Below are positions 1 through 19,328 of a stretch of 34,852 nucleotides of DNA, in pieces. Made by a program: the position numbers and the translations under genes. Under the pieces are notes generated by a model, which did no database searches, had not been told where the DNA came from, and saw only the letters and a list, made by a program, of their open reading frames with translations. Numbering within the stretch: position 1 is the first letter of the stretch; each line of letters opens with the position of its first letter. This DNA comes from Verrucomicrobiales bacterium (GTDB taxonomy: Bacteria > Verrucomicrobiota > Verrucomicrobiia > Limisphaerales > JAQGOY01). The DNA lies in NCBI GenBank assembly GCA_028293375.1, contig JAQGOY010000139.1, positions 1-34,852 on the forward strand. The letters run 5' to 3'.

Positions 1-1742
1 ACCGCGTACAGAGGCACACCTGCCGCTGCAAACTCGCGTGCCAGGGGCTCGATAACCGCCTTCTTTGAACTTACGAGTATTGCAATGTCTTCAAATTTCA
101 CCGGTCTTGAGCTGCCATCGCTTTCAAAAATGGGGTAACCACTTTGGACAAGGCCCCGAATGGTTTGGGCCACATTTCGCGATTCCACAATCAGTTCGCC
201 CGGGTTCTCAGTCTCCTCACCAGTTTCAGGATCGGTCACCGGTCCACTTTTATCCTTTGCCCAGGTCTGGATCTGGACTTCTTCGGGGAAGATTCTCTTT
301 TTAAAATGGGACCGATTTCCACCATCCGAAAACCTTAACTCTGCGTCCTGATCATACTCGATCCCACCAACCGGGCTTTTCATGAAGTGCTGGAAAATGT
401 CATTCACAAAATGGAGAATGGTCTCGTGACTGCGAAAATTCTCCTGGAGGGAAATGACTTTCCCATGCTGGGAATCCAATGTTTTCCAATGGTCTTGATA
501 ATCCAAAAAGATCGTAGGATCGGCCAATCGAAAACGGTAAATGCTTTGCTTCACATCACCCACCAGGAAGAGGCCTTTGCCAGTTTCTGGAATCGAAATA
601 GCGCGAATGATGGTATCCTGGACTTTGTTTATATCCTGGAATTCATCGACAAAGATTAAGTCGAAATCATTTCTCAGTTCGCAGGCAAGTTCCGAAGGTT
701 TCTTTCGATCGTGATCCCATAGCAATTGAAGCGCATATTGCTCCAGGTCGCTGAAATCAAGAAATCCCTGTTCCCGCTTCGCCTTTTGATACAACTTGTG
801 AAAAGTGAGACAGATTTTTGTGACTGCTCGAATGGATTGGGAATGAAGCGCGTAATCCTGGCTGAGTTGTTTGAAATCGTCCCCCTCGCTGCCCGTCAGT
901 TGATAGATGAATGCTAAATCCTGGCAAGCTCGAGTGTAAGACTTCCCAACTCTTATGTCTGTTGGCGCTTCTTTGGTTAGTTGATCCAAATGACAGACTG
1001 CCGCACTCCAGGAACTCAGATCGGACGAGTCCTGGACCTTGTTTAAAGCGTTATAAATGTCAGTGGATTTCGGTGAATCGTAACGCCTGGCTAAATCTCT
1101 CCAAACTTCTCTTTGTTTTAGCCATTGATCTTTCAGGAGGTTTTTCCAGGTCTCCAACGACTGAATATTTTCCTGAAGGCCCTTCAACCATGCCTCGGGA
1201 AAGGGTTGGCTTTGCGAATAGAAAAACAGTTTCAGGATCAATGACTTGAAAGTCTTTTCGCCCCCTTCGCAATATTGGGTGAAGAACGGTTCGGACTCCG
1301 GATCGCCTTCCAATTCTTCAAAAAGGCTCTCGAAGGTTTTCTCAATGATCGATTGTTGGGTCTTATCCGTGCAAATTCGAAACGAAGGGCTTAAGTTCAA
1401 GTCCAGGATATACTTTCTCACCAGGTAGTTGCAAAACCCATGCAGGGTGGAAATATGTGCCTGGTCCAGCTTCGCAAGTTGTTCCTGTAGGTGTTGCGAA
1501 CCTTGGTCAAGGTTGAGCCTGGACTCCAGCATTGCCTGGATTCTTTCCCGGACTTCTTTGGCAGCCGCTTCGGTAAAGGTGACCATCAGAACGCGATCCA
1601 GCGAACCTTTGTTTTTTTCATCCGTCAGGTAGCGAATGCACTTCTCCACCAGCGTTTTTGTTTTGCCCGCGCCTGCCCCCGCGACCAAAAGCACGTTTCC
1701 GGTGCTCTCTATGGCCTGGTTTTGTGCCTCGGTAAAACTCAT
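1..1742 (-). CDS. addA: AddA-type helicase-nuclease subunit, partial (runs off left edge)
   Basis: N-terminal 580 residues of a UvrD-like superfamily 1 helicase; the rest lies outside the window. Directly visible are a Walker A motif (AGAGAGKT, residues 21-28), a motif Ia region (VTFTEAAAKE) and a Walker B/motif II DEFQD at residues 366-370, followed by QSIYRFR and an LQENFRS motif. AddA acts with AddB to unwind and resect double-strand breaks for RecA loading. The nuclease domain expected at the AddA C-terminus is not in the window. The ATG at 1742 overlaps the addB stop as ATGA, with no clear Shine-Dalgarno, so translational coupling is likely. Assignment as AddA rather than RecB or PcrA rests on the addB neighbour and the N-terminal sequence style. 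Confidence 0.93.
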   Translation of the reverse strand, partial: MSFTEAQNQAIESTGNVLLVAGAGAGKTKTLVEKCIRYLTDEKNKGSLDRVLMVTFTEAAAKEVRERIQAMLESRLNLDQGSQHLQEQLAKLDQAHISTLHGFCNYLVRKYILDLNLSPSFRICTDKTQQSIIEKTFESLFEELEGDPESEPFFTQYCEGGEKTFKSLILKLFFYSQSQPFPEAWLKGLQENIQSLETWKNLLKDQWLKQREVWRDLARRYDSPKSTDIYNALNKVQDSSDLSSWSAAVCHLDQLTKEAPTDIRVGKSYTRACQDLAFIYQLTGSEGDDFKQLSQDYALHSQSIRAVTKICLTFHKLYQKAKREQGFLDFSDLEQYALQLLWDHDRKKPSELACELRNDFDLIFVDEFQDINKVQDTIIRAISIPETGKGLFLVGDVKQSIYRFRLADPTIFLDYQDHWKTLDSQHGKVISLQENFRSHETILHFVNDIFQHFMKSPVGGIEYDQDAELRFSDGGNRSHFKKRIFPEEVQIQTWAKDKSGPVTDPETGEETENPGELIVESRNVAQTIRGLVQSGYPIFESDGSSRPVKFEDIAILVSSKKAVIEPLAREFAAAGVPLYA

Positions 1743-4700
1743 AGAGCTTTGGCTTCTTTCTTCCTGGATACCTTCGGCGAAGTAATCTTTTCCTTTTCTG
1801 GTAATTTCTTGAGCGCACGAAATTCGTGGGACAGATCGTCGATCCGGCAAACAGTGAGGTATTTGCAATACTGGCAGGCCGTTACTTTGCCCTCGCGATA
1901 AGGATTGATCTTCACGGAACCGCTGAGGATTTCACGGCCCGCGCTGACCAGGAGATCTTTTGTTTCCCCCAGGAGCCGATTGAAGCCCTCGGTATTCAGG
2001 GAATGATTTTTAGAGCTTTTGAAAGCTGTGCCTGCATTTTCGCTGGAAGGTTCCAGGGATGTCTCTAGGTCATTATTAAATCTGCCGGTCAGAATAAATC
2101 GTTCGCTTTGTTTTTGTTCCATTAACTCACGATTTTTTCCTGAAACACTTTCGCCGCGCAGGTTTCCGTAAAACATCCCGGCCGGGCAGGCTGTTTTGGC
2201 CCCAGCTCGTTCACTGAATTCGGGAATTGCCATAACCGCAGCGAGGTAGGAGGGCAATTGCACTTGCAGGGCGTTGATGAATTTCTTTTCCTCAAATTTT
2301 TTTGCGCTCGATTTGAAATCCAGGATGACGACGTGAAGTTTTCCTGCTTCATCGATCCATCCACCCAGCGAATCGATGACCCCACGCAAGTCGAGCGCCT
2401 TGCCGTCGCCCAAATCCAGGTGCCAGGGGGGGATTTTTAAATCTTTTCGCGTAATATCAATCATTCGACCGTCATCCAGTGAAATCGCATTGTTTTCGCA
2501 GTCGTTTTTCCCGGACAGCCCAAAACCAGTTTCCACGATGAGGGGTTGATAATTGGAGCGCCGAGTCCATTCCGCCAGGAACTGAATGAAAGCAGTTAGG
2601 CGGTCACGGGCCGCTTTGTGTTCCAATCTCGAAAAGGCAGTTTGCCGAACCAGACCCTGTTTGAAGTGCTGGTCGTAATGCTTGAAGAGGTCCCCCAATA
2701 AACGGAGTATCTCCTGATCCGTCACCGTGTTCCATTTAAGATCGAGTTTCCCCAGCAGGTCGTGGAATGCGGAGAGAATCAAATGCTGGTAGGTCCCTTT
2801 GTTACGGGCATCAAATTCTAGTTTTTCCCTTTCGCGCCCTTTGAGCCCGGCATCGACAAAAAACTGGAAGTGGCAGGCAGAAAAGAGTTCCAGTTTGCTG
2901 ATGGAACTTTTGATCACCGAACCGTAGAGGTTGGCGGCCAGTTCCGGGCCTATCGTAGTGCTGGTTTCATCCCTGGAATTGAGCAGAGTGGAAACTCCGT
3001 GGAAGCTGGTGCTCTTCAGTAGCAGGTTAAGTTTTTGAAGATCCTCTTGCGATCCGTTTTGAACAATCCTCCGAATAGGTTCCACCGCGTGCAGATCCTG
3101 ATGCGATAAAAACTCAGCGAAGGACTCTACGGGATTGAGGCGTTTGAGCGGGTACTGGAATTGCGAAGGATTGAGATGGCTCTGGGAATCATCCTGCTGC
3201 GCCCAGGTCACCACGACTTTTTCCCGGCTGCGGGTTACCGCGATATAAAAGAAAAACCGTTCATGGGAACTGAACTCCATTCGACTTTTCTGGAATCCAC
3301 CCAAATGCCGGTTGATTTCCAGGGCCTCTGTTTCAGTGATTAGCCGCGTGTTGGGTGGTGATGCCGGGAATACTCCCTCGTTAAGCCCGAGCACGCAAAC
3401 TAATGAGAGATCTGGATTCCGGGAGCGATCCACCGCCCCGACAAGAACTTCGTCGAGGGTGGGAGGAATAATCCCGACGCTGAGACCGGACAGACCGGCT
3501 TGAAGGAGTCCCACCCATTCGGCCAGGGAGAGTTTCTGCTGTCGAAAAGCCAACCGAACACTCTTTATCCAACTTTCCAATTCGTTCCAGACGGTCTCGT
3601 TAATCTTTTGTAATTTTTCGTCGGAAACGTCGGCGAGTTGCTGCTGAACTTCCAGAAACGACCATAAGGTCTCGAATGCAGTAGCCAGTTCATTGCCGTC
3701 AGGATTTTCCCCAAGTAATCCGTGAAAATGCTTGAGCAATTCCATTTGCCTGGCACGAACTTTATCGGCCGATTCAAGCTCAGGAATCTCGAAGCCTTTT
3801 TTCCAATGGGTTTCCTGCCAGGCGAACCGAAGGGCGAGTGTTTCCAAAGTATCCAGCGAGTAACCGGGCCGGGTCAGATTGGTTTTTAGACAGGCAAACC
3901 ATCGAGCGTGGGTCCATCCGTAGGCAGCCAACTCCAGCGCCGTTTCGGTGAGCCTCACCAGCGGGTGATGACGAATCGGTTTTCGTCGGTCCAGGAAAAA
4001 GGGAATGCCGTATTCGGTGAAAACGCGTGTGATGACGCTGTGATAGGGTTCCAAATTTCGAACCAGCACCGCGCAATCCCGATATTCCCCGCCCGTTTTC
4101 ACGTGGTTGAGGATGGCGCGGGCGGCAACTCTGGCTTCCTCCTCGCGGGTCTGGCATTGCACAAGGGAGATCGCTTGATTCGGCTGGGGCGACACGGGAG
4201 TTGTGGGAACCTCGTTGAGCGCAATGGCACGCTCCAGGATTTGAAGCGCGGGAGCATGGGCAAATCGGTTTTTTGGGTTCGCCGCGCTTAACCATTGAAC
4301 ATCCGGCGCGGTGTTTGTTGCGACTTTAATGCTCTCCAGGCAGCGCAGATAACTGGACTGCGCCACCAGCCATGGGCTAAGCCACGGGGATGTGGTCGTG
4401 GGCGCAGTGTCGAGGCAAAAAGCCAGCACATGTTGTTTCGAACGCTGAAGCACAGCAATGAGAAATTGAAGCTCGCATTGGCTCAGTTCACCAAATCCAT
4501 CCATCCATACGCGTGCGAAGAGCGGTGCGGAAAACGCTGTTTTCAACACGCTTGCCGCAAGGGGCAACAGATCATGGGCATCGGACACTTGGTTCTTTGC
4601 CGTCCATTCGGAGTACAGTTCCAGGATGTGGGCGAGATCAGCAAGCTTATGGGAAAGACGAGAACCGGGCTTATAGTTTTCGGCCAGGGCACGCAGGCTG

Positions 4701-13263: not shown

Positions 13264-14007
13264 TCAACGTTCCACCACAATCTGCGGTCTCGTGCTTTCC
13301 GCGATGGCTAAAAGCTCCTTTTGCTCCTTGTTGGGGATTTGGAGTTTATCCAGCGAGGCCTTGAGATCCCCCACCGTAGCATCGAACTCGGCGTTTGAAA
13401 TGTGCATTGCCGCGTGTGAGGATTTTATCTCTTTGCCGTCGTAGTGGGCGGGTCCTCCAGTGGCCAAAGCCAGAAATTGGACGAAGTGCTTTTTGAGGAG
13501 AGCGATATTCGCCGGTGTCCCGTCCCACGTTACCGGTTGGCTGCGCTTGAAGGAGAAGCCACCTCGCGTCACTCCTTTTCGCTGCCAGTTCACGCGCGGA
13601 TCCTGCAATGCGCGGGGAATGAAATCATCGACAATTTTCGTTAATCCCTCGTCTCCGCCAAGGCGATCAAACAGCGAAAGTTTTCCTTCCACGACCGCGG
13701 CCTTGTTCGTGCTTGCGGGATTTTCTTTATCGGCGATTTTGGCTTGCTTTACGTTTTTCTGACCCGCCCCTTCGCCGCCCCCGCTCAGCTGCTCTTCTTT
13801 GGCCATGCGTTGACTGGCGCGCTGGTCGGCATCTTTGCTTCCGGAGGTAAAGAAATCGGTATTTTTCGCTTTTTGTTTTTGGGTCCCGCAACCTGCAAGA
13901 AGTGAGATCATCAGCGAGAAAACAACCAGGGGAACGATGGTGAGCAATCGAATCCCCGGAACGATCATCATTGCCTGTGATTTATTTTGTTTCAGTGGTC
14001 TTTTCAT
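13264..14007 (-). CDS. Lipoprotein-anchored group 1 truncated hemoglobin
   Basis: 247 residues. Residues 1-40 are a long lipoprotein signal ending in LLAGC (Cys40). Residues 41-108 are a low-complexity Lys/Gly/Gln-rich linker. Residues 111-245 match truncated hemoglobin group 1: LFDRLGGDEGLTKIVDDF, FVQFLALATGGPAHYDG, and the SSHAAMHISNAEFD segment with the expected proximal heme ligand His198. The usual B10 Tyr in the FY pair appears as Ile130, and the region between the B and E helices is longer than in typical members. Known truncated hemoglobins bind O2/NO and are usually cytosolic; here the signal predicts an envelope location. It starts 15 bases after the DUF748 gene stop, so the two are likely co-transcribed. 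Confidence 0.87.
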   Translation of the reverse strand: MKRPLKQNKSQAMMIVPGIRLLTIVPLVVFSLMISLLAGCGTQKQKAKNTDFFTSGSKDADQRASQRMAKEEQLSGGGEGAGQKNVKQAKIADKENPASTNKAAVVEGKLSLFDRLGGDEGLTKIVDDFIPRALQDPRVNWQRKGVTRGGFSFKRSQPVTWDGTPANIALLKKHFVQFLALATGGPAHYDGKEIKSSHAAMHISNAEFDATVGDLKASLDKLQIPNKEQKELLAIAESTRPQIVVER

Positions 14008-14022
14008 AATTCAATTCTCATT

Positions 14023-15189
14023 TTATAAAGCATCGCCTGAAATGGCGTCCGAAACCTGGGGCGACTCAAACTGGATACTCTCCACGCCGCCTGGGCTCGC
14101 TTCCAGGCGTGGCAAATAAGCCCGGATGAAAGCGTTGTAGAGAACGTTTCCAAGTGTCGCGAGGATGTCTGTCGAAGTTTTATCCGGGTTTCCGCTGAAC
14201 GGAATAATAGTGCCCAACTGGTCGCGTGGCTGATTCTTGAAAATCTTCACTACTCCCCCAATCAGGGCCTGCCAAAAAAATTGGAGAACGTTATCATCCT
14301 GGAGATCTTTGGTGAGGCTGAAAACTTTGAGATTTCGAAAGAGTGGCTTCACATAACCGACTACCTGGCCTTCTTTGGAATCGGTTTCGATTACCAAATC
14401 CAGCCAGCCGCGTTTGAAATCGAACTTTCCGTAAGCAAGTGCGAGGGCATTGATTTCCGTAAGATCGAGGCCGAGGAGCCTGGTCGCCATGTGGAAAGTG
14501 GGGCGATATGAAAAAGGATCGAGAGTCATGTTGAATTCAAGTTTTGCTTTGTCCATGACCATTGCTTTGGCGGTGACGGTGGCGGGCAGGGGAGTCTTGA
14601 GGTCCTGGATGTTCCCGAGGTTATCGATACTGCCTTCCACTTGAGATAGGTAGATGTCCACCGGGACTTGTTTTTGGTAGGTGCGGAAATGAACCATCCC
14701 ATCCTGGATAACAGCGCTGTTAATTTTGAAAGGAAATAAATCTTTGATGATTTGCAGCCACGGCGCGCCGGCGCCGGTTTGAGTTTCGTCATCGCTTTCG
14801 GCATCCACGAAATTGATTTCGGGTTTGATCATTTTGACACGGCCGACAATGCGACGGTGGAGGAGGGCTTTGCCGGGAATGGCAAATTCAACAGTTTTCG
14901 CCGAGAAAAATGGCACAGGCACGCTTCCCGTGGTTTTATTCAGGACAATATCCTGAATGGCATATGCCCCGCGCCAAAGATTGATGCGAAGGCCTCCAAT
15001 CCTGCCTGTGTACATCTGGCTGTGCGAAAGTGTGCGATTGATGTAGTCGCGCAATGCCCATGGCAAAATCGCGCGGCCAATTCCCAGAACGATGGCCATG
15101 ACGAGGAAGGTCCAGCAAATCACTCGCCAAAGCAGATGACGCTTGCGCGAAGGCGTTGTTTTGGATTCGCTGGCTGGGCTGCTTTTCAT
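14023..15189 (-). CDS. DUF748 (AsmA-like) envelope protein
   Basis: 388 residues with a single N-terminal membrane helix (about residues 20-45) after a basic cytoplasmic tail. It is followed by a large periplasmic region with the DUF748 look: RIGGLRINLWRGAYAIQDI near the start, FKINSAVIQDGMVHFR in the middle and LLGLDLTEINALALAYGKFDF later. DUF748 proteins belong to the AsmA-like group, thought to bridge the envelope or handle lipids; the exact role is unknown. It is the first gene of a pair with the truncated hemoglobin lipoprotein. The ATG at 15189 lacks a clear Shine-Dalgarno and is preceded directly by a hairpin. Confidence 0.85.
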   Translation of the reverse strand: MKSSPASESKTTPSRKRHLLWRVICWTFLVMAIVLGIGRAILPWALRDYINRTLSHSQMYTGRIGGLRINLWRGAYAIQDIVLNKTTGSVPVPFFSAKTVEFAIPGKALLHRRIVGRVKMIKPEINFVDAESDDETQTGAGAPWLQIIKDLFPFKINSAVIQDGMVHFRTYQKQVPVDIYLSQVEGSIDNLGNIQDLKTPLPATVTAKAMVMDKAKLEFNMTLDPFSYRPTFHMATRLLGLDLTEINALALAYGKFDFKRGWLDLVIETDSKEGQVVGYVKPLFRNLKVFSLTKDLQDDNVLQFFWQALIGGVVKIFKNQPRDQLGTIIPFSGNPDKTSTDILATLGNVLYNAFIRAYLPRLEASPGGVESIQFESPQVSDAISGDAL

Positions 15190-18314: not shown

Positions 18315-19328
18315 ATGAAAACACGCGAACGCCTCCCGGTAACCGTCCTGACTGGTTTCCTCGGGGCAGGTAAAACGACTCTATTAAACCATTTGCTGAC
18401 CCAAAAGCACGGATACAAATGTGCCATCATCATTAACGAATTTGGTTCAATCAGCATCGATAACCAGTTGGTGGTTGGCGCCGACGAGGAAATTATAGAA
18501 CTGAATAATGGCTGTCTTTGTTGCCGTGTTCGTGGCGATCTCATCAAATCGTTGAACAATCTGTTTCAGAAACAAAAACGTTTCGATTACGTCGTTATAG
18601 AGACCACCGGATTGGCTGATCCAGGTCCCATTGCTCAAACATTCGGCCAAAAAGAGTTGGCCGACAAACTTCGATTGGACGGGATCATCACGGTAGTCGA
18701 CGCGCGGCATTTCGAAAAGGAGTTGAACACGGCCCCTGAAACCCGCCAACAGGTCGCTTTTGCCGACGTTTTACTGCTGAACAAGGCAGATTTGGTTGAA
18801 AGCGCTGAACTGGAAAAACTGGAAGGGACACTTCAACGAATGAATCCATTGGCGAAGATTTACCGCACCCAGAAGTCGCAAATCGACGTCGCCAAAATCC
18901 TGAACATCAAAGCACGGGAAGCGACCACTCCATTGCCGGTATTTCCTTCCCGTGGCGGTTTCAAAATTTTAAACAACCCGCCCCCCGTTCCCCATTCGGA
19001 AGTGGAACATCACCACCATCATCATGATGACGACGTCTCTTCGTTTTATTTTACGGAAGATCGTCCGCTGGATCTCAATAAGACAGAAGCGTGGCTTGGT
19101 AATGTAATCAATACGCTGGGAGATCGAATTTACAGGTGCAAAGGGATTCTTTACGTGAAGGGTCAACCGAAACGATTGGTGTTCCAGGGTGTCCAAATGA
19201 TGTTCGAAGCCTATCCGGACCGATTCTGGAATGTAGGTGAACAGAAACAAAGCCAGCTTGTCTTTATTGGTAAAGAGTTGAATCAAAAGGAAATTCAGGG
19301 CACGTTTGAAAGCTGCCTGGCTACTTAA
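18315..19328 (+). CDS. COG0523 (CobW/ZNG1-type) metallochaperone GTPase
   Basis: 337 residues of the G3E GTPase family. The Walker A motif GFLGAGKTT covers residues 14-22. The family metal-binding CxCC motif is at Cys67-Cys69-Cys70. A TTGLADPGP segment and the guanine-specificity motif NKADL follow, then a His-rich loop of six His (232-237) with acidic residues, and a CobW_C domain (LDLNKTEAWL to the end). Such proteins deliver zinc or other metals to client enzymes using GTP. The specific metal cannot be read from sequence; the His loop favours zinc or nickel (inference). It is followed after 16 bases by an FmdB-type zinc ribbon gene. Confidence 0.93.
   Translation: MKTRERLPVTVLTGFLGAGKTTLLNHLLTQKHGYKCAIIINEFGSISIDNQLVVGADEEIIELNNGCLCCRVRGDLIKSLNNLFQKQKRFDYVVIETTGLADPGPIAQTFGQKELADKLRLDGIITVVDARHFEKELNTAPETRQQVAFADVLLLNKADLVESAELEKLEGTLQRMNPLAKIYRTQKSQIDVAKILNIKAREATTPLPVFPSRGGFKILNNPPPVPHSEVEHHHHHHDDDVSSFYFTEDRPLDLNKTEAWLGNVINTLGDRIYRCKGILYVKGQPKRLVFQGVQMMFEAYPDRFWNVGEQKQSQLVFIGKELNQKEIQGTFESCLAT

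Follow-up and report, generated by a model that had tools for sequence, protein, structure and literature searches.

A group 1 truncated hemoglobin with a lipoprotein-type signal, a conserved tether motif and a DUF748 gene partner in Verrucomicrobiales

Group 1 truncated hemoglobins are normally regarded as small cytosolic proteins. A 34,852-nucleotide stretch of DNA from a Verrucomicrobiales bacterium (contig JAQGOY010000139.1; the whole stretch is referred to here as the window) contains a gene that appears to place such a globin behind a lipoprotein signal, next to a gene for an envelope protein of the DUF748 type. This raises the question of whether the arrangement is real and, if so, what a heme protein might do at the envelope. 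A preliminary description of this DNA had proposed O2 or NO handling by an envelope-attached globin, and had considered that unusual. Among the matches listed in a search of the open-access literature, we recognised neither a lipoprotein-type truncated hemoglobin nor any account of this family. The analysis described below shows that the window protein belongs to a real, conserved subfamily in which the globin is of a known kind, and the anchor, the tether motif and the fixed partner form a new combination.

The globin domain and its family

The minus strand of the window carries an ATG-start open reading frame encoding 247 residues (13264-14007), of which residues 165-240 matched the Pfam profile Bac_globin (PF01152; E = 2.8e-11, 44.1 bits versus a cut-off of 21). 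NCBIfam profiles gave weak matches only, far under cut-off, for this protein and none for its DUF748 partner. The complete group 1 truncated globin domain comprises residues 108-245 (13273-13686, minus strand), as supported by Pfam, a profile search of the PDB, Foldseek and VIA, and the solved sequences nearest to it are those of the group 1 truncated hemoglobin of Shewanella benthica (PDB profile search, E = 5.5e-18 to 2.8e-17). An AlphaFold2 model calculated from eight sequences had a mean pLDDT of 61; most globin helices were modelled well, with ten-residue blocks reaching 92, and the poor regions were the signal peptide, a large part of the tether and the loop at 149-157. Truncated globins ranked first when this model was submitted to Foldseek (8uzu, E = 1.1e-5, probability 1.00), and VIA-align superposed it on 8ugz with Z 14.2 and an rmsd of 2.4 over 113 residues. 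The Z values for Mycobacterium tuberculosis HbN and Chlamydomonas THB1 were 14.1, tied with the S. benthica protein. The truncated (2-over-2) globin fold was thus recovered in both comparisons, on a predicted model of pLDDT 61.

The S. benthica protein (SbHbN; PDB 8UGZ, 7TT9), a group 1 globin of the TrHbN-2 type that also ranked first with Foldseek, resembles the window protein in having hydrophobic residues at B10, E7 and E11. It differs in that its 116-residue solved chain lacks a lipobox, the tether motif and an insertion, and carries Met at E10 and Tyr at CD1. The insertion lies between helices C and E at about residues 142-163 of the window protein (13519-13584, minus strand) and was located by alignment: window residues 141-173 align with residues 31-43 of the S. 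benthica chain, which leaves about 20 additional residues. It contains an invariant Trp161, whose column is a gap in all 53 of the non-family globins aligned. The extended loop noted earlier is therefore a family-specific insertion that is conserved in the relatives.

A search of an 84,980-species collection with the window protein, a scan that detects close relatives only, returned seven loci in metagenome-assembled genomes titled Pedosphaera or Verrucomicrobiales. Among 320 genomes of the order, 47 matched; 14 of these, the window's own included, did so at E <= 4.5e-80, and 13 encode a full-length protein. The remaining 33 matched weakly (best E 1.5e-12), and those that were read are other globins. 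Across 387 genomes of the phylum the family was found only in the window's own genome, with twelve others matching at E values from 3.8e-15 to 6e-4. The family is narrow in this sample, being confined to one order and to eight genome families by the tool's labels. The 13 full-length members, window included, rule out a chance open reading frame or an artefact, and the low omega in the motif and globin wherever it was measurable also argues against one. A promoter and terminator scan was uninformative.

The family forms one clade (support 100/99) in a tree built from 51 globin domains. It groups with eight N2-like rows and one further row, L057, at 99/96, and the fork without L057 has 93/70; these values come from 51 hand-chosen rows of 67, which include no characterised TrHbN-2, and from a bootstrap that had not fully settled. 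Seven of the eight N2-like rows beside the family are without Tyr at B10, L055 being the one that has it, and L057 is a long-branched plasmid row of the Tyr/Gln type. The table used for pocket residues and signals left out 16 of 83 loci as second copies of genes already present. One further genome, G037 (L033/L075, L076), contains a globin without a signal or motif of its own that looks rearranged, and separate fragments of globin 3' ends occur in G037 and in G129 (G129:C135:27313-27411).

Predicted anchor, tether motif and gene partner

The protein begins with a predicted signal peptide (residues 1-39; 13891-14007, minus strand) in which a hydrophobic core is followed by L-A-G-C, and Cys40 (13888-13890, minus strand) is the residue predicted to be lipidated. 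This Cys is preceded by Gly and stands 13 residues from an invariant FTSGS in 12 of the 13 full-length members and 12 residues from it in the other. The signal peptides themselves vary in length and sequence, with omega values of 0.37-1.27 in four pairs; retention of the Cys spacing while the signal peptide diverges is as expected for a signal peptide in use. A PROSITE-type lipobox rule, scanned across the whole stretch ahead of FTSGS, fits 12 of the 13, window included, the exception being L031 with Pro at -2. A stricter pattern flags six of them, the window protein among these. That figure, together with the fact that the start site is a prediction, would favour a cytosolic globin whose translation begins downstream of the lipobox, an outcome that the preliminary description had singled out as fatal to its proposal. 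However, the fixed distance between Cys and FTSGS in 13 of 13 members makes such a start unlikely, and taken with the diverging signal peptide it leads us to consider the cytosolic explanation barely credible. The lipoprotein-type signal with Cys40 is in this respect borne out by its relatives.

A signal peptidase II gene is encoded in the window's genome. The residue at +2 after the lipobox Cys is Gly in six members, His in three, Ser in three and Arg in one, and never Asp. Under an E. coli-like sorting rule the absence of Asp would indicate an outer-membrane destination. LolA was not detected in this genome, which is 75.6% complete, and sorting to the outer membrane therefore remains a proposal. 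Lipidation of the globin and its target membrane are both what we infer from the sequence.

The stretch between anchor and globin had been described as a linker of about 70 residues. The stretch is present, but the idea of a passive linker does not hold, as about 40 of its residues form a conserved motif. This tether motif occupies residues 52-90 (13738-13854, minus strand; FFTSGS..ADQRASQRMA..EQLSG.GEG.G..), and its consensus, FFTSGS.EADQRASQRMAK.EQLSGSGEGAGEK, is nearly fixed over the roughly 40 residues after the anchor, with 16 of 50 columns invariant in ten sequences. Identity was higher in the motif than in the globin in three of the four pairs compared (1.00 and 0.94 for G102/G100, 0.93 and 0.88 for G123/G124, 0.88 and 0.83 for G129/G128); the window and G125 run the opposite way, with 0.72 in the motif, below the 0.79 of the globin. 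The corresponding omega values were 0.000 and 0.053 for G102/G100 and 0.052 and 0.102 for G123/G124, a comparison limited to these two pairs by saturation of globin dS in G129/G128 and in window/G125.

The motif profile gave one match per genome in all 13 full-length family genomes, and none in G037 or in six genomes that have the DUF748 gene only. Among 58 relatives it matched four, all known family members, and in the 387 phylum genomes it found the window's own copy and three weak matches (E = 0.002-0.007). No globin or lipoprotein was seen in the open reading frames around two of those three, and we take all three as chance. With nothing else outside the family in those 387 genomes, the motif was rejected as a general lipoprotein tether. 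We read it instead as a probable docking element, for which any particular partner is a candidate only.

Directly upstream on the same strand lies a gene for a 388-residue protein (14023-15189, minus strand) that matched the DUF748 profile (Pfam PF05359; E = 1.7e-24, 86.4 bits versus a cut-off of 50) and is AsmA/TamB-related, with a predicted N-terminal membrane helix. Proteins of the AsmA type function in the assembly of the outer membrane and in its lipid supply. A hydrophobic N-terminal stretch was evident by eye in all six aligned DUF748 sequences, and a helix at 14-56 appears in the AlphaFold2 model, which is poor and as a whole unusable (pLDDT 39). PMC4494059 describes the DUF748 profile as similar to AsmA and TamB. 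The two genes are separated by 15 nucleotides (14008-14022), a spacing consistent with co-transcription. The pairing suggested earlier for the window extends to its relatives, as all 13 full-length members have the DUF748 gene immediately upstream. The globin ATG lies -4 to +38 nucleotides from the DUF748 stop in 12 of them and 151 nucleotides away in L032, these starts being candidate positions because some members also have ATGs further up.

This DUF748 type occurs in 19 of the 320 order genomes, namely the 13 with a full-length globin and six others at 36-45% identity. The family globin is absent from all available sequence of those six; downstream of the DUF748 gene, five have no such globin, and in the sixth, G119, the contig ends there. 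Five DUF748 homologues (36-38% identity) thus stand without the family globin, and DUF748 can evidently dispense with it. Within the genomes sampled, a full-length globin is found only with DUF748, and DUF748 is also found alone. Pairwise identities of the two proteins are correlated (Mantel r 0.84, 0 of 5000 permutations), although shared ancestry alone could suffice to explain this.

The outer flanks are mostly unshared. The largest other cluster of neighbours recurs in 4 of 21 loci, as counted on an open reading frame set that left out both genes of L064 and the globin of L072, though they are present, and a larger conserved gene cluster was rejected on this basis. One cluster, c4, immediately follows the pair on its downstream side in L074, is one open reading frame further away in L070 and neighbours a lone DUF748 gene in L077; its position near the pair in two loci means that the flanks are not wholly random. 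Elsewhere in the window, the open reading frame at 18315-19328 (plus strand) encodes what we take to be a COG0523/CobW-type metal-chaperone GTPase with a His-rich tract (HHHHHHDDD).

The heme pocket and its possible chemistry

Pocket positions were assigned by alignment to S. benthica TrHbN, with B13 and E10 taken from PMC11904497. The proximal ligand claimed for the window protein, His198 (13414-13416, minus strand), aligns with F8, where all 14 family members have His. His174 (13486-13488, minus strand), which aligns with Met45(E10) of S. benthica TrHbN, is likewise His in 14 of 14 and is a candidate distal heme ligand. Counting from B13 in PMC11904497 places Ile130 (13618-13620, minus strand) at B10. 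Across the family B10 is Thr in nine members, Leu in three and Ile and Ala in one each, and never Tyr; E11 is Leu in 12, Phe in one and Met in one, and never Gln; E7 is Leu in 13 and Phe in one. The window protein itself has Ile, Leu and Phe at B10, E7 and E11. The B10 Tyr is therefore missing, as had been stated, but its absence is no oddity, since hydrophobic residues at B10, E7 and E11 fit the TrHbN-2 consensus as given in PMC11904497. The family as a whole keeps the hydrophobic E7 and E11 of that pattern in 14 of 14 members, yet has Thr at B10 in nine.

GlbN of cyanobacteria and Chlamydomonas THB1, both of the TrHbN-1 type, carry Tyr at B10 and Gln at E7/E11, and we know of no lipid anchor in either. 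The same combination is seen in the TrHbN-1-type rows of our pocket table, in which E11 is Gln in 30 of 30 and B10 is Tyr in 29 of 30, the exception (L038) being badly aligned at that point. These proteins resemble the window protein in another respect, as a distal residue (His in GlbN, Lys in THB1) ligates the iron according to PMC11904497, which also notes that an E10 residue may coordinate heme iron. A potential E10 ligand of the kind found in hexacoordinate GlbN-like truncated globins is present as His in all 14 family members. PMC4720485 states that His or Lys at E10 may coordinate the iron and urges care with such assignments; a basic E10 residue supports heme binding and may only help to hold the heme. 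On alignment, the invariant E10 His is a candidate for the sixth ligand.

M. tuberculosis HbN and similar group 1 globins are known for NO dioxygenation, and the window protein could likewise be an envelope O2-handling globin or NO dioxygenase, with a ferrous-oxy heme that breaks down NO or supplies O2 there. The fold does match that of HbN (Z 14.1, on a par with the S. benthica entries), and the Y34F variant of S. benthica TrHbN, said in PMC11904497 to be closer to most TrHbN-2, forms an oxy complex. However, the HbN-like set of Tyr B10 with Gln E7/E11 is absent from all 14 members, in which Thr, Leu, Ile or Ala at B10 and Leu, Phe or Met at E11 mean that the Tyr/Gln network is gone. In the same paper such networks are associated with a high affinity for O2 and an enzymatic function, and hydrophobic sets with low affinity; S. 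benthica TrHbN itself is reported not to bind O2 reversibly. A Pfam scan of six window neighbours found no reductase. Given this pocket and the candidate ligand at E10, the O2/NO handling put forward in the preliminary description is disfavoured, and we consider it unlikely.

The same residues bear on three other explanations. In one, a change of ligand or redox state at the E10 His would shift helix E and the insertion loop and so signal to DUF748. The invariant E10 His, the adjacent insertion with its invariant Trp and the fixed partner all suit a heme-based sensor of this kind, as does the presence elsewhere in the order of a truncated globin at the head of a long, signalling-like protein (L020; by reading); Pfam recognised no output domain in either the globin protein or its partner, and we judge this explanation to be improbable. 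Another explanation is a periplasmic store or carrier, that is, a lipoprotein passing heme on, with DUF748 as a hydrophobic path. Truncated globins usually hold heme tightly, which speaks against a carrier, and the neighbour clusters, which are unannotated, recur in at most 4 of 21 loci; on the other side, His at both F8 and E10 would fit heme sequestration and AsmA-like proteins handle hydrophobic cargo. On balance a store or carrier seems rather improbable. The third is a heme-free globin fold serving as a structural lipoprotein, for which the greater conservation of the tether motif than of the globin in three of four pairs could be cited. Retention of the F8 and E10 His in 14 of 14 members argues against it and makes it very improbable.

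Globins with export-type signals and a proposed role at the envelope

The preliminary description considered export of a group 1 globin unusual in itself, and this did not survive comparison with other loci. Fifteen of 21 non-family group 1 loci of the order, a set gathered through resemblance to the family rather than sampled at random, begin with a signal-like stretch: a hydrophobicity script flagged 14 and L036 was recognised by eye, and L040 and L041 carry a lipobox as well. Of the remaining six, the start of L047 is missing and five lack a signal. By comparison, a signal was flagged in 1 of 12 order-level loci of another globin group from the family genomes. Plasmid records gave 44 matches, and four of the seven examined also appear exported: one has a lipobox (Cupriavidus), three are Sec-like by reading (Azoarcus, Caballeronia, Novosphingobium) and three have neither. 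The script flagged three signal-bearing plasmid globins, including those of Caballeronia and Novosphingobium, and L054 was recognised by eye. For the non-family loci examined, 15 of 21 of them signal-like, a cytosolic location can therefore not be taken as the default for group 1 truncated globins.

The Cupriavidus sp. P-10 plasmid globin (L051; Pfam E = 1.9e-17) is similar to the window protein in that a lipobox precedes an N2-like globin. It differs in having a short stretch between anchor and globin, no FTSGS motif, no insertion and Arg at E10. The Caballeronia plasmid globin (L055, 672-2715, plus strand), a Sec-type group 1 globin, lies between genes annotated as DUF3034 and 'methylamine utilization protein'. 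Truncated globins at the cell surface are also described in PMC9536834, where group II YjbI of Bacillus subtilis is reported at the surface without a signal sequence and with a protein-hydroperoxide peroxidase-like activity, and M. tuberculosis trHbN is likewise cited as surface-located; both differ from the window protein in lacking a signal sequence.

A frequent arrangement in the order is a CPISGKP...Y.FA-type (YHS/TRASH-like) segment joined to a TrHbN-1-type globin, in most cases behind a signal peptide (L015-L017, L039, L042-L047, L049, L089); Pfam YHS matched one of three such proteins under cut-off (E = 2.4e-5) and the other two not at all. Three of these, L015, L042 and L043, share with the window protein the order, apparent export by sequence and a group 1 globin. 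They differ in having Tyr at B10 and Gln at E11 and stand apart from the family in the tree, and their genomes (G003, G112, G308) are outside the 19 with this DUF748 type. We know of no DUF748 partner for YjbI.

Group 1 globin domains are also found at the N-terminus of frames of 708-820 residues (L020, about 1435-3348, plus strand; L109, L110 and L088; genomes G037, G197 and G657). L020 continues into what we take to be PAS and chemotaxis-receptor signalling regions, and a truncated globin in the input position of a receptor would be unlike the usual globin-coupled sensors. The window's genome has a second globin of another tree group (L002, 1468-1890, plus strand, 140 residues), beside open reading frames that presumably encode a TetR regulator and GTP cyclohydrolase I.

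The anatomy of the family protein can be stated with high confidence: an export-type signal with a fixed Cys, a globin fold, His at F8 and E10, neither Tyr at B10 nor Gln at E11, the tether motif and a linked DUF748 gene. What the protein does is a more tentative matter. The explanation that we favour, though with somewhat less than even confidence, is an envelope-anchored, possibly bis-His heme protein with an AsmA-like partner, active in redox or peroxide/NO chemistry and not in O2 handling. The lipobox Cys, a site indicated by its conservation, would be the point of lipid attachment, and the residues at +2 (Gly, Ser, His or Arg, never Asp) would direct the protein to the outer membrane if an E. 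coli-like rule applies. The mature, TrHbN-2-like globin would then sit at the periplasmic side of a membrane, where its FTSGS..ADQRA.Q.MA..QL.G motif may dock on a constant partner in the envelope, for which the DUF748/AsmA-like protein is the likeliest candidate. Heme would be bound through His198, and the aligned His174 (E10) would probably supply a second endogenous ligand. With no Tyr/Gln network in the pocket, electron transfer or peroxide/NO chemistry may be favoured over the carriage of O2, and the globin could in this way protect or tune a DUF748-dependent envelope function under oxidative or nitrosative stress.

A more far-reaching version, which we regard as rather improbable, is a heme-controlled envelope switch, in which the globin would be a dedicated subunit of an AsmA-like (DUF748) device for lipid transfer or envelope assembly, docked by way of the FTSGS-ADQRA motif, and the device would be gated by the redox or NO/peroxide state of the His-His heme. 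If this is true, we know of no earlier truncated hemoglobin with a link to the supply of outer-membrane lipid.

PMC11904497 describes TrHbN-2 as a clade that has received little study, and DUF748 is by its very name a domain of unknown function. The lipoprotein-globin gives a handle on both, in the form of a place (the envelope), a partner and a heme chemistry that can be tested.
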